Assembly: GCF_005280275.1 (NCBI RefSeq)
Contig: NZ_CP040021.1
Location: 1,327,001-1,391,000 of the forward strand
Reading direction: 5' to 3'
DNA length: 64,000 nt
Source of the DNA: Salinivibrio kushneri
GTDB lineage: Bacteria > Pseudomonadota > Gammaproteobacteria > Enterobacterales > Vibrionaceae
The stretch's first letter is position 1. Each line of letters starts with the position of its first letter. The position numbers and the translations under genes were made by a program. The notes under the pieces are model-generated. The model searched no databases. It had not been told where the DNA came from and saw only the letters and a program-made list of their open reading frames with translations. This document shows positions 60,199 to 63,339 of the stretch, one piece after another.

Positions 60199-62319
60199 AT
60201 GACGTCGAAACGCGTATCGACCTTTGAACGTTCAGACTCTGACTCTTTACAAGAAACCTTATTTGAACTCAGTCGTGTTGAAGCAAGAGAAAAGCGTTTA
60301 AGGGAAGAAAACGACGCAATTTTATCGGCGATCTCAGCCATGACGGAAGCGACGTCAAAAACCGATATTTTTGCTTCCTTACTTGATGTGATCCGCCGTT
60401 ATGTCAGCTTTGATAGCGCCGTGGCGCTAAGCCGTAACCGAGAAACAGAAGATGCGTTTCGCTGTTTAGTATCGACTGAACGCTTGCTCGAAACCGTCAC
60501 TTGGCAAACAGGGGATGTGTTTCGCCGCTGTGTGAGTGGCGAAACGGTTGCTATCTATAAACCTGGCATGGTGAAAGAGCTGCATTGCTTAACGCATCAA
60601 TATGCCAGTTATTTACAAGGCACTGCGCTGATTAGCGGGCTGACGGTCAATGACAGTGAAGTCATGCTTATTTTACTGTCACACCGCCGCGATGCATTTA
60701 ATAACGAAGCTCAGCAAGTTATCGACCGGTTTCGCCCCTTGATTGAGCGGACCATTATGGATATCGACTACCGCCATCGCCTCCATGCATTAGTGGGGAG
60801 TCGCACCCAGGAACTGAATGCTAGCCGCCAGCGCTTTCAAGACTTTGCCCAAACAGCCAGTGATTGGTTTTGGGAGCTCGATAACCAATTTCAACTGACT
60901 TACCTGTCGTCACCCAATACTGATACCGACATTGATGCTGAAGCCCTGCTGGCAAAACTCAAATCAGATGCCGAATTAAAAACGACGTTAGAAGCGTACA
61001 TATACACAGAAAAAGCCTTTAGCGATATTGAGTGGCATATAGCATCTCGTCACCATGATTATTGGGTAAGTCTATCAGGCCGTCCTTGCTACAATAAGCG
61101 CGGTGAACTTGCAGGTTATCGGGGGACGGCTAAAGATATCACCGCGACCAAACGTCGCGTCGTTGAATTGCAGCAGGCGCGTCAGCAAGCTGAGTTGGCG
61201 AATAATGCCAAGTCGCAATTCCTTGCGGTCATGAGCCACGAGATCCGCACACCACTCAATGCTGTTTTGGGATTGATCGATGCATTGCAACACTCTTCAT
61301 TGACGCAAGAGCAAAAGCAGTGGGTAGGGCAAATGGATAAATCTGCTCAGTTATTGCTGACATTGATCAGCGATGTGCTAGATTTGTCTAAAATTGAGTC
61401 TAACCGCTTTTCACTCTCTCCCTCATTGATGAAGCCCAGCGATAGTGTGTTGAATGTCTATCAACAGTTGATTGAGCGGGCTGATAAAAAGCGCATTAAC
61501 CTCTCTGTCAGTGTCTCTCCTTCTGTGCCTAACACCTTGTTTATGGACGAGAACCGCTTTACGCAAATACTGCTTAACTTGGTGGCCAATGCTTTAAAAT
61601 TCACGGACCGTGGTGGGGTGACAGTGTCACTTGACGCTCATGGTGAGCACCTTGAGCTATGGGTGAGAGATTCGGGAATAGGTATCGACGAAAAGCAGAT
61701 TGATCGAATCTTTGAGCCTTTTACTCAAGCGGATGGCAGCATTACTCGCCGCTTTGGTGGTACCGGCCTCGGATTATCCATTTGCAAAAAACTGGTAGAG
61801 ATGATGGGGGGCAGTATTCACGTAGAAAGTGAGCCTTATCAGGGAACTGACTTCTGCGTTCGCTTGCCGATTGTCGAAACACCTCAAGATGCAGAAAAGT
61901 ACCAAGCACCGCCCAATGTCCCGGCTGATGCCGTGCAGCCTATGTCGATATTGGTCGCCGAAGATAGCCGCGCTAATCAGATGGTGGTGAGGTTAATGCT
62001 TGAAAAACAAGGCCATACCGTGACGCTCGCATCCAATGGCGAAGAGGCTCTGGCACGGGTTGAACAAACAGAATTCGATCTTGTGCTCATGGACATGTCG
62101 ATGCCCGTAATGGATGGCATCGCAGCCACCAAAGCACTGCGCGCGTCTGGATTTAAACGTCCAATTGTTGCGTTAACGGCTAATGCGATGGATGAAGACA
62201 AACAACGGTGTGTCCGTGCCGGTATGGACGACTTTGTGACTAAACCTATTAGAGCCGCGAGTCTTACCGCCGTACTGCATGTTCATCAGCCATTAGATCT
62301 GTCCACTAATTACCGCTGA
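60199..62319 (+). CDS. vpsS: Hybrid sensor histidine kinase VpsS/NahK-like
   Basis: A 706-aa hybrid kinase without membrane segments. An N-terminal coil and GAF-like region (about 40-190) precede a PAS-like domain (about 205-320), then the dimerisation domain with His347 (MSHEIRTPLN), the ATPase domain (NLVANALKFTDRGG, VRDSGIGI, FGGTGLGLSIC) and a receiver domain with Asp632 (DLVLMDMSMPVMDG). In V. cholerae VpsS feeds the LuxU-LuxO phosphorelay and promotes biofilm formation. It should be regulated by the FIST protein encoded just upstream. A matS lies at 61618-61630. Confidence 0.87.
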   Translation: MTSKRVSTFERSDSDSLQETLFELSRVEAREKRLREENDAILSAISAMTEATSKTDIFASLLDVIRRYVSFDSAVALSRNRETEDAFRCLVSTERLLETVTWQTGDVFRRCVSGETVAIYKPGMVKELHCLTHQYASYLQGTALISGLTVNDSEVMLILLSHRRDAFNNEAQQVIDRFRPLIERTIMDIDYRHRLHALVGSRTQELNASRQRFQDFAQTASDWFWELDNQFQLTYLSSPNTDTDIDAEALLAKLKSDAELKTTLEAYIYTEKAFSDIEWHIASRHHDYWVSLSGRPCYNKRGELAGYRGTAKDITATKRRVVELQQARQQAELANNAKSQFLAVMSHEIRTPLNAVLGLIDALQHSSLTQEQKQWVGQMDKSAQLLLTLISDVLDLSKIESNRFSLSPSLMKPSDSVLNVYQQLIERADKKRINLSVSVSPSVPNTLFMDENRFTQILLNLVANALKFTDRGGVTVSLDAHGEHLELWVRDSGIGIDEKQIDRIFEPFTQADGSITRRFGGTGLGLSICKKLVEMMGGSIHVESEPYQGTDFCVRLPIVETPQDAEKYQAPPNVPADAVQPMSILVAEDSRANQMVVRLMLEKQGHTVTLASNGEEALARVEQTEFDLVLMDMSMPVMDGIAATKALRASGFKRPIVALTANAMDEDKQRCVRAGMDDFVTKPIRAASLTAVLHVHQPLDLSTNYR
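61618..61630. other. matS site, in vpsS
   Basis: GTGACAGTGTCAC, a perfect match to GTGACRNYGTCAC. It lies 0.85 kb from dif. Confidence 0.8.
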
Positions 62320-62474
62320 CTTGAATCGATTTAGGCCAATTCATTTGGAATAATCAAGATTAAAGGAAGTAGTAATTAGCTATTTTATGGTAAATAGATA
62401 ATTACGTTTAATGACAGCAAGCGAGTAGTGCTGGGCGAGCAGAAACAGTGTCCAACGTCAGACCTCAAACCATT

Positions 62475-62502
62475 ATTTAACATAATCTATATAATGCGCA
62501 CT
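62475..62502 (-). other. dif: dif site, XerC/XerD recombination site of the chromosome terminus
   Basis: Read on the minus strand, 28 bp: XerC arm AGTGCGCATTA (62492-62502), central hexamer TATAGA (62486-62491), XerD arm TTATGTTAAAT (62475-62485). Both 11-bp arms match those I recall for V. cholerae dif1; the XerD arm also matches E. coli dif. It lies alone in a 248-bp gap between vpsS and a DUF3634 gene, close to matP. XerCD resolve chromosome dimers here, activated by FtsK. Confidence 0.92.
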
Positions 62503-62567
62503 TAAAGGTGTGCGTTAAGATAGGAGCGATATGGCATTTCTCGTCCCGCACGGCGTGTAATCTGATG

Positions 62568-62858
62568 CTATTTGAATGACTGATGTGGAAATACGTTTTT
62601 GATACGTTGTTGAATACGGTTATCGATGCTGCGCGACATCACCACCTTCGCGGGTTTAAAGCGATTGCTATACACTTTCACTGTGCCCGTAAACGGATGG
62701 CGCTTCGCGATGTCTTGGCAGTCATGTAAGAAACCTTTCGGCACTTTTCCTTTATGACGCACTAACTGACCATCTTTAAATGCAATCACGATCAGTGGCC
62801 GGTCGATCAACATGAATGCGAGGAAAATGGCAAAAGAGATCAGTAAAAAGTAGCCCAT
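62568..62858 (-). CDS. DUF3634 family small membrane protein
   Basis: A 96-aa protein with one N-terminal membrane segment (YFLLISFAIFLAFMLI) and a basic soluble part (GKVPKGFLHDCQDIAKRHPFTGTVKVYSNRF), matching DUF3634 of Vibrionaceae. The role is unknown. It lies 31 bp after matP on the same strand, so it is probably cotranscribed, and it is the gene nearest to dif. Confidence 0.83.
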   Translation of the reverse strand: MGYFLLISFAIFLAFMLIDRPLIVIAFKDGQLVRHKGKVPKGFLHDCQDIAKRHPFTGTVKVYSNRFKPAKVVMSRSIDNRIQQRIKNVFPHQSFK

Positions 62859-62889: not shown

Positions 62890-63339
62890 TCACATTCCTA
62901 GCAAGTTACTCAGATCTTGCTTTAAGGTGTCTACCTGCTTATTGGCACTCTCTGAGCGATTAGCCTCAGAAAGTAAGTATTCGATGGTGTCTGACAAGGT
63001 CGCGTCAAGCTCGTGTGCTTTTTGCGAGAGTTTCTCCCACACCCGGTAATCCAAATCGATGGATTTTTTCCGCGTTTGCTCTTGCTCAGCGTTAAAGTGA
63101 CGCTTGCGCTTGGCGCGAATCGCTTGTTTTAGCTTTTTCTCCAACGACGGCGCCATGTGCTTTTCAATCCATTGATGCACCCGCGTGGGTTCATGTTCTA
63201 AGGCTAACAAAGCATCAACGGCTGTTTTAGCCTCATCGCTATCAATGTATTTTGTGACAGTGTCACCGTCTTTCCACTTTTTCACCAGGTAGGCCCATTT
63301 CCAGCCTGCCTCAAGGTTCTCGAGTTGTTGATATTTCAT
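62890..63339 (-). CDS. matP: Macrodomain Ter protein MatP
   Basis: A 149-aa protein, E. coli length. N-terminal four-helix bundle (MKYQQLENLEAGWKWAYLVKKW), then the ribbon-helix-helix DNA-binding domain (RKKSIDLDYRVWEKLSQKAHELDATLSDTIEYLLSEA) and a C-terminal coiled coil. MatP binds matS sites and holds the Ter region together during segregation. I start at ATG 63339 because it gives MKYQQLENLE as in the family; the frame is open 20 codons upstream. A matS site lies inside the gene and a near match just upstream. Confidence 0.95.
   Translation of the reverse strand: MKYQQLENLEAGWKWAYLVKKWKDGDTVTKYIDSDEAKTAVDALLALEHEPTRVHQWIEKHMAPSLEKKLKQAIRAKRKRHFNAEQEQTRKKSIDLDYRVWEKLSQKAHELDATLSDTIEYLLSEANRSESANKQVDTLKQDLSNLLGM
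63254..63266. other. matS site, inside matP
   Basis: GTGACAGTGTCAC, a perfect match to GTGACRNYGTCAC, within the N-terminal part of matP. A near match with one mismatch (GTGACAGCGTAAC, 63366-63378) lies upstream of the gene. Confidence 0.82.

Follow-up and report, generated by a model that had tools for sequence, protein, structure and literature searches.

The question raised by this locus is whether the 28-bp sequence close to the end of the 64-kb stretch of DNA analysed here (the window, C1:1327001-1391000) is the dif site of the main chromosome, as an earlier note on this DNA had proposed, and whether it is a bare recombination site or part of a larger arrangement. The proposed sequence was found at 62475-62502, on the minus strand, as AGTGCGCATTA-TATAGA-TTATGTTAAAT with 0 mismatches, and its two 11-bp arms around a 6-bp centre match the Vibrionaceae consensus for dif. 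Nowhere else does the window come within 3 mismatches of the 28-mer, and 100 shuffles of the window yielded no place within that distance. The features of the locus are collected in Table 1.

Table 1. Features of the dif locus and its surroundings, in window coordinates
Feature	Position	Strand	Remark
dif of chromosome I	62475..62502	minus	pattern search, sequence
XerC arm AGTGCGCATTA of dif	62492-62502	minus	
central hexamer TATAGA of dif	62486-62491	minus	
XerD arm TTATGTTAAAT of dif	62475-62485	minus	
spacer from XerD arm to box, 79 bp	62396..62474	minus	in phase with the family series
XerD-arm-like half-site ATTAAACGTAAT	62401..62412	minus	just before the box, in the orientation opposite to that of the dif XerD arm
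conserved box ATTTACCATAAAATA	62381..62395	minus	
inverted repeat after box, 5' arm CTAATTAC	62372..62379	minus	only 8 bp in this window
inverted repeat, 3' arm GTAATTAG	62306..62313	minus	within the final codons of the kinase gene
hybrid histidine kinase/response regulator, 706 aa	60199..62319	plus	XerD-side neighbour
DUF3634 protein (PF12321), 96 aa	62568..62858	minus	XerC-side neighbour
matP, macrodomain Ter protein	62890..63339	minus	NF003471, 228 bits, cut-off 165
matS site GTGACNNNGTCAC	61618..61630		0.8 kb from dif
other matS sites	starts 10832, 18083, 24075, 46560, 53443, 63254, 63832		

The window belongs to a 3.44-Mb genome made up of contig C1 (2.84 Mb) and contig C2 (0.60 Mb). With dnaA at C1:16, the dif site at C1 1,389,475 is 31 kb away from the antipode of dnaA. 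In a contiguous 400-kb stretch of C1, the cumulative GC skew reached its maximum at C1 1,376,185, 13.3 kb from dif; nine of the ten 20-kb blocks to the left of dif were positive, the block adjoining dif having a skew of -0.005, and all ten to the right were negative. KOPS motifs (GGGNAGGG) in the same 400 kb were directed at dif in 34 of 37 cases. Exact matS sites numbered 44 genome-wide (27 on C1 and 17 on C2), with the reversed pattern found only 5 times, and 23 of the 27 on C1 fell within 224 kb of dif. Perfect dif sites were detected once on C1 and once on C2, the sole further place in the genome having 3 mismatches, and the 2.84 Mb of C1 held no second place within 3 mismatches of the pattern used. 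A skew turning far from the site, or a better match on the same chromosome, had been named as grounds for rejecting the proposal, and neither was encountered. The site on C2 (dif2) lies at 77,610, where the skew turns between the sampled blocks at 60-80 kb and 90-110 kb.

The genome encodes XerC (360 bits, cut-off 335), while XerD and FtsK were scanned as fragments of 174 aa (262 bits, cut-off 330) and 567 aa (887 bits, cut-off 1566), respectively; the XerD fragment scored best with subfamily PRK00283, over its cut-off, and next with XerD ahead of XerC. Skew, KOPS, the matS cluster, the dnaA antipode and the XerC, XerD and FtsK genes all agree with the proposal, and from homology and genome context 62475-62502 is almost certainly dif1 of chromosome I in a two-chromosome genome of the Salinivibrio type. 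By homology, XerCD would bind and cut this site, and XerC and XerD, activated by FtsK, would there resolve dimers of chromosome I. Two further recombinase-related sequences were observed in the same genome. A tyrosine-recombinase-like ORF (C2:81445-81924, 319 aa open frame) lies about 4 kb from dif2, and an integron integrase fragment (C1:1081997-1082593) scored 267.5 bits against an NCBIfam cut-off of 265, from which the genome may carry a chromosomal integron.

The earlier note gave the arms as those of V. cholerae dif1, which is right for one V. cholerae sequence and not for another. The XerC arm of N16961 dif1 is given as AGTGCGTATTA (PMC2731167), one base different from AGTGCGCATTA, whereas the record of the V. 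cholerae TLC-Kn1 junction carries AGTGCGCATTA itself. The V. cholerae hexamer given in the note, TGTATG, agrees with both the table in PMC2731167 and the TLC-Kn1 record. TATAGA departs from V. cholerae dif1 at the centre bases beside the XerC arm, and the centre bases adjoining that arm are described as setting phage receptivity (PMC4246890). The present genome has TATAGA on chromosome I and TGTATG on chromosome II. Of 8 Salinivibrio genomes, 7 combine a chromosome I hexamer of the TATxxA type with TGTATG on the second chromosome; in S. proteolyticus (G003), the pair is TGTATA (chromosome I) and TCTATC (chromosome II).

The site had been placed in a 248-bp interval between matP and a gene named vpsS in the note, where the analysis shows a hybrid histidine kinase gene. 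The gap has that length (62319 to 62568), whereas matP is not the next gene, as the DUF3634 gene lies between. With just 248 bp between the flanking genes and no inserted element, the description of the site as clean stands, and no integrated phage DNA of the attP or IMEX kind separates dif from its neighbours. Elsewhere in the window, three tandem tRNA-Val (gac) genes occupy 538-804 on the minus strand. The dif core itself is an ordinary dif, correctly read; its surroundings are not ordinary. The 28-bp site is not bare: on its XerD side, 79 bp away, it is accompanied by a module that consists of an XerD-like half-site, the box ATTTACCATAAAATA and, after the box, TAAT with an inverted repeat. 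This module also adjoins dif2 and the dif of several large Vibrio plasmids.

In 45 genomes, the XerD-side flanks of dif1 and dif2 had a median score of 89 within a genome and 48.5 between genomes, and the XerC-side flanks 19 and 18, respectively; the shared core of the XerD-side flanks is the box. In counts compiled after inspection of the data, 210 of 232 Vibrionaceae dif sites had the 15-mer with no more than 1 mismatch on their XerD side; these sites include some species twice and represent 186 unique box regions. Even when 3 mismatches were allowed, the 15-mer was found in just 1 of 220 XerC-side flanks and in 5 of 232 shuffled ones. An exact copy of its first 14 bases was present at 71 of 76 sites on chromosome I, at 41 of 45 on chromosome II and at 77 of 111 named loci; XerC-side or reversed matches to the 14-mer had 3 mismatches or more throughout. 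Bases 1-11 of the box are one base off the reverse complement of the XerD arm. Allowing up to 2 mismatches, 177 of 180 unique flanks have the half-site directly before the box; the controls gave 3 of 180 at more distant places and 8 of 180 after shuffling. Conserved DNA thus lies within about 200 bp of the Xer core, as at sites of the cer/psi type.

The box was missing (more than 2 mismatches) at 15 of the 111 named loci, including V. ruber, V. litoralis, V. hibernica and V. albus, and at 4 of 121 other loci, so that it is dispensable in some lineages; the loci of these four species, together with related loci, offer a natural comparison set for identifying a box-binding protein. Outside the family, the box was absent from the one dif flank searched in each of E. 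coli K-12, Aeromonas caviae, Catenovulum and Motilimonas.

Following the box, an inverted repeat opening with TAAT was detected in 101 of the 186 sequences (controls 4 and 3), the stem threshold not being reached in 85; in Salinivibrio the repeat has just 8 bp. It has 26 different arms, a case of covariation. Among 107 mismatches between the repeat arms, 20 were G-T, which is no excess as G-T makes up 2 of the 12 mismatch types, and a DNA palindrome is therefore favoured over an RNA hairpin. This bears on the possibility that the dif is bare and ordinary and that the adjoining element has another function, for example as a transcript end or as the promoter of a neighbouring gene. In the window, the box does have dif on one side and the 3' end of the kinase gene on the other. 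On the other hand, the box goes with dif on chromosome I, chromosome II and plasmids despite other neighbours, and it stands in helical phase with dif (see below); the lack of a G-T excess likewise counts against this reading. In addition, the 16-mer TATTTACCATAAAATA has two exact copies, both at dif, in the 1.14 Mb examined of the 3.44-Mb genome, and away from dif the same 1.14 Mb contain no exact copy of the box and a single one with 1 mismatch (near C1 1.80 Mb, locus L100). We consider a neighbour-gene element unlikely.

Among the Vibrionaceae plasmid dif loci, on replicons of 79-519 kb, 11 of 16 had the exact box on the XerD side, a fraction that is biased upwards because the loci were chosen from BLAST matches to queries containing the box; the distances were mixed (56-163 bp), and 3 of 11 plasmid dif copies had 1 or 2 arm mismatches. 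At the V. cholerae TLC-Kn1 junction, the box was present with 0 mismatches, 69 bp from dif. Three of the large Vibrio plasmid loci (L474, L478 and L482) also have an ISNCY-family transposase gene on the XerC side of dif, which recalls the IS1202-family elements described as targeting dif sites in Acinetobacter (PMC10132070).

It could be asked whether the element goes back to a dif-integrating phage that inserted long ago and whose attachment site has persisted as a fossil. The geometry is similar, as CTX attP has two inverted dif-like sites 90 bp apart (PMC4246890) and the XerD-like half-sites of the element are inverted relative to dif and mostly 57-123 bp away. A relic, however, would not be expected to be near-invariant across the family and on both chromosomes, and the phage-bearing, more variable side of dif is the XerC side, whereas the box is on the more stable one. 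Moreover, in 15 of 80 viral contigs scanned a dif has the box at a distance of 62-163 bp, matching the host arrangement, which also argues against a fossil origin. That the element derives in this way seems quite unlikely.

Both dif sites were observed on one contig in G198 C1 (L348/L349, 3.24 Mb), G254 C1 (L350/L351, 4.07 Mb) and Enterovibrio norvegicus FF-33 (G036 C38, 3.23 Mb), which are either fused chromosomes or misassemblies. The box is present with 1 mismatch at the G198 sites and absent from those of G254.

The distance between the XerD arm and the box is not free. It peaks at about 68, 79, 90, 100, 111 and 121 bp, and among the periods scanned, 4-25 bp, the best was 10.5 bp (R 0.638, 140 non-redundant spacers of at most 125 bp), a value reached by 0 of 5000 smoothed null sets; the count left out 15 of 213 spacings, those above 125 bp. 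Bands at 5-7 (a harmonic), 7-9 and 12-15 bp were also above the null, with lower R (0.25-0.34). By genus, and with redundant sites included, R was 0.77 in Vibrio (110 sites), 0.69 in Photobacterium (40), 0.91 in Enterovibrio/Grimontia (7) and 0.97 in Salinivibrio (20), and each of these four gave separately a common phase of 5.1-5.8 bp. No phasing was seen in the 20 sites of Aliivibrio (R 0.24). Within a genome, the spacings of dif1 and dif2 differ by loosely phased amounts (mean cosine 0.41, 31 genomes), and a tree-pair test of the spacings gave p 0.00035, a value driven partly by differences of 1-2 bp and given no weight here.

Spacing in helical phase is the usual sign of two protein complexes that touch each other across bent DNA. 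Since the distance comes in whole helical turns in four of the five genera tested, a protein bound to the element most likely contacts XerCD-dif, and it would do so from the same face of the helix through bending or looping of the spacer. From these regularities, we hold it probable that the element serves dif in cis, as an accessory site. The two tandem XerD-like half-sites suggest that XerD itself may occupy part of the element, with the palindrome bound by a second protein; this is a tentative proposal, to which we give somewhat less than an even chance. In that case, the complex might act as a gate on XerD-first strand exchange, or determine which copies of dif synapse.

If the element instead were a replication fork barrier or terminus-binding site, its place beside dif would be a matter of chance. 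It is indeed located at the skew switch of both chromosomes. A fork barrier, however, has no need of a fixed orientation and phase relative to dif, and V. cholerae is reported to have no replication fork trap (PMC6549158), which lowers this reading further; we regard it as very improbable. Other candidates were set aside. The box as an RNA element was rejected, as the window had no Rfam match at gathering score save three tRNAs and the repeat showed no G-T excess; the box as part of a phage gene was likewise rejected, and a likeness to Tus Ter or parS2 was considered and dropped.

The element beside dif, with its box, is apparently unreported. Neither the box nor hexamer swaps were mentioned in the titles and abstract openings found for conserved or accessory motifs near Vibrio dif, for the centre of dif in connection with chromosome fusion and for Salinivibrio dif, and a string search of the literature with TTTACCATAAAAT and ATTTTATGGTAAA returned no match on bacteria by title. 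Val et al. (2008) mention, as data not shown, no conserved motif immediately upstream or downstream of Vibrio dif1 and dif2 (PMC2533119), a statement about the immediate flanks, whereas the box starts at least 57 bp from dif. The account there of dif1 and dif2 cutting in vitro and of plasmid recombination names FtsK and no other accessory factor (PMC2533119), and in a passage of PMC2731167 recombination at chromosomal dif is inferred to need no accessory elements.

The accessory site is one side of the argument, and the central hexamers are the other. A dif match within 2 mismatches was found in 321 of 329 Vibrionaceae genomes, and hexamers were tabulated by hand for 136 of the 329, taking the dif beside matP as that of chromosome I. 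Genomes were counted when matP was among the matches listed (or was found by tblastn, its place being estimated) and shared a contig with one dif. In genomes with a third dif-like place (e.g. G121, G127, G141, G147, G181, G185, G207, G215, G216 and G292) the chromosome II site was chosen by contig and hexamer class, and G248 and G021 were excluded. Divergent dif centres on the chromosomes of one cell have been described, together with the idea that they keep the chromosomes apart (PMC2533119, PMC2731167). Equal hexamers on both chromosomes occurred in 0 of the 136 genomes, while 2000 shuffles within genera averaged 22.8 and never gave fewer than 11, which extends the published idea to 136 genomes without exception.

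The same hexamers nevertheless change places between chromosomes. Eight of 33 unordered pairs were found in both orders on chromosomes I and II, and TGTATA, for instance, is the chromosome I hexamer of 77 genomes and the chromosome II hexamer of 28. Within reciprocal pairs, at least 17 changes are needed on a quick tree of 81 MatP-LonB rows, that is, a quick search with two neighbouring proteins in which 17 of 78 inner branches have support below 80 and G000 and G024 are long branches. In 18 near pairs with differing order, some genomes being reused, the XerD-side flank was kept over more than 1 kb on chromosome I in 15 and over more than 0.5 kb on chromosome II in 14, the XerC-side flank of chromosome I matched over more than 1 kb in 6, and XerD-side matches across chromosomes came to at most 180 bp in total. 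As the XerD-side flanks stay with their own chromosome in most pairs, it is the centre that moved, and not the terminus.

The simplest route for such swaps would be a rare crossover between dif1 and dif2, fusing the chromosomes, and then a second crossover that separates them; this double event can leave the flanks in place with the hexamers exchanged, and we put it at about an even chance. Alternatively, the centres may have been rewritten by phages, converted by homologous recombination in shared flanks, or changed by parallel point mutations, and this group of explanations is a serious possibility, although one that we place a little short of even. In its favour, the two hexamers of a genome differ by 2 bases in 83 of the 136, and in the pair G219/G327 the XerC arm moved together with the hexamer. 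The XerC-side DNA is near-identical at dif1 and dif2 of the same genome in G240, G139, G301 and G085, where one dif-integrating phage is probably present twice, and the satellite phage TLC alters dif, according to the title of a 2010 paper. A single rewriting or conversion, however, tends to pass through identical hexamers, the state seen in none of the 136 genomes, and the eight pairs are exactly reciprocal.

Overall, a dif1 with a dif-proximal phased element, together with hexamer exchange, is the best explanation and in our judgement a reasonably probable one. Its more specific form, a two-part dif of core and phased accessory site that would gate or identify recombination, with hexamers exchanged via fusion and fission, is plausible and rather under an even chance. 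If true, dimer resolution in most of the Vibrionaceae, a family that includes the model two-chromosome genomes, would have an unstudied component; the conserved phased element names one box for mutation. The hexamers preserve traces of earlier exchanges between chromosomes, which can be mapped onto a tree.

As in V. cholerae dif1 and dif2 (PMC2533119, PMC2731167), the locus has a 28-bp XerCD site, one per chromosome, with divergent centres and converging KOPS; unlike V. cholerae, the present genome has the divergent hexamer (TATAGA) on chromosome I and the near-canonical TGTATG on chromosome II. The element resembles CTX attP in its inverted Xer-like sequences about 90 bp apart (PMC4246890), but CTX attP is phage DNA that works as a folded single strand, whereas the Vibrionaceae element is host DNA with half-sites and no full second dif. 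It also resembles the plasmid sites cer and psi, in which a Xer core and about 180 bp of accessory DNA with proteins (PepA and ArgR or ArcA) form an oriented synapse (PMC5357621). In contrast to cer and psi, the Vibrionaceae element is found on chromosomes too, lies on the XerD side and contains XerD-like half-sites. In Bacillus subtilis, XerD-only sites in the terminus unload SMC; there are several of them, not known to be phased to dif. The Vibrionaceae element would be analogous to these in placing XerD in the terminus away from a full dif, with the difference that the Vibrionaceae have one element per dif.
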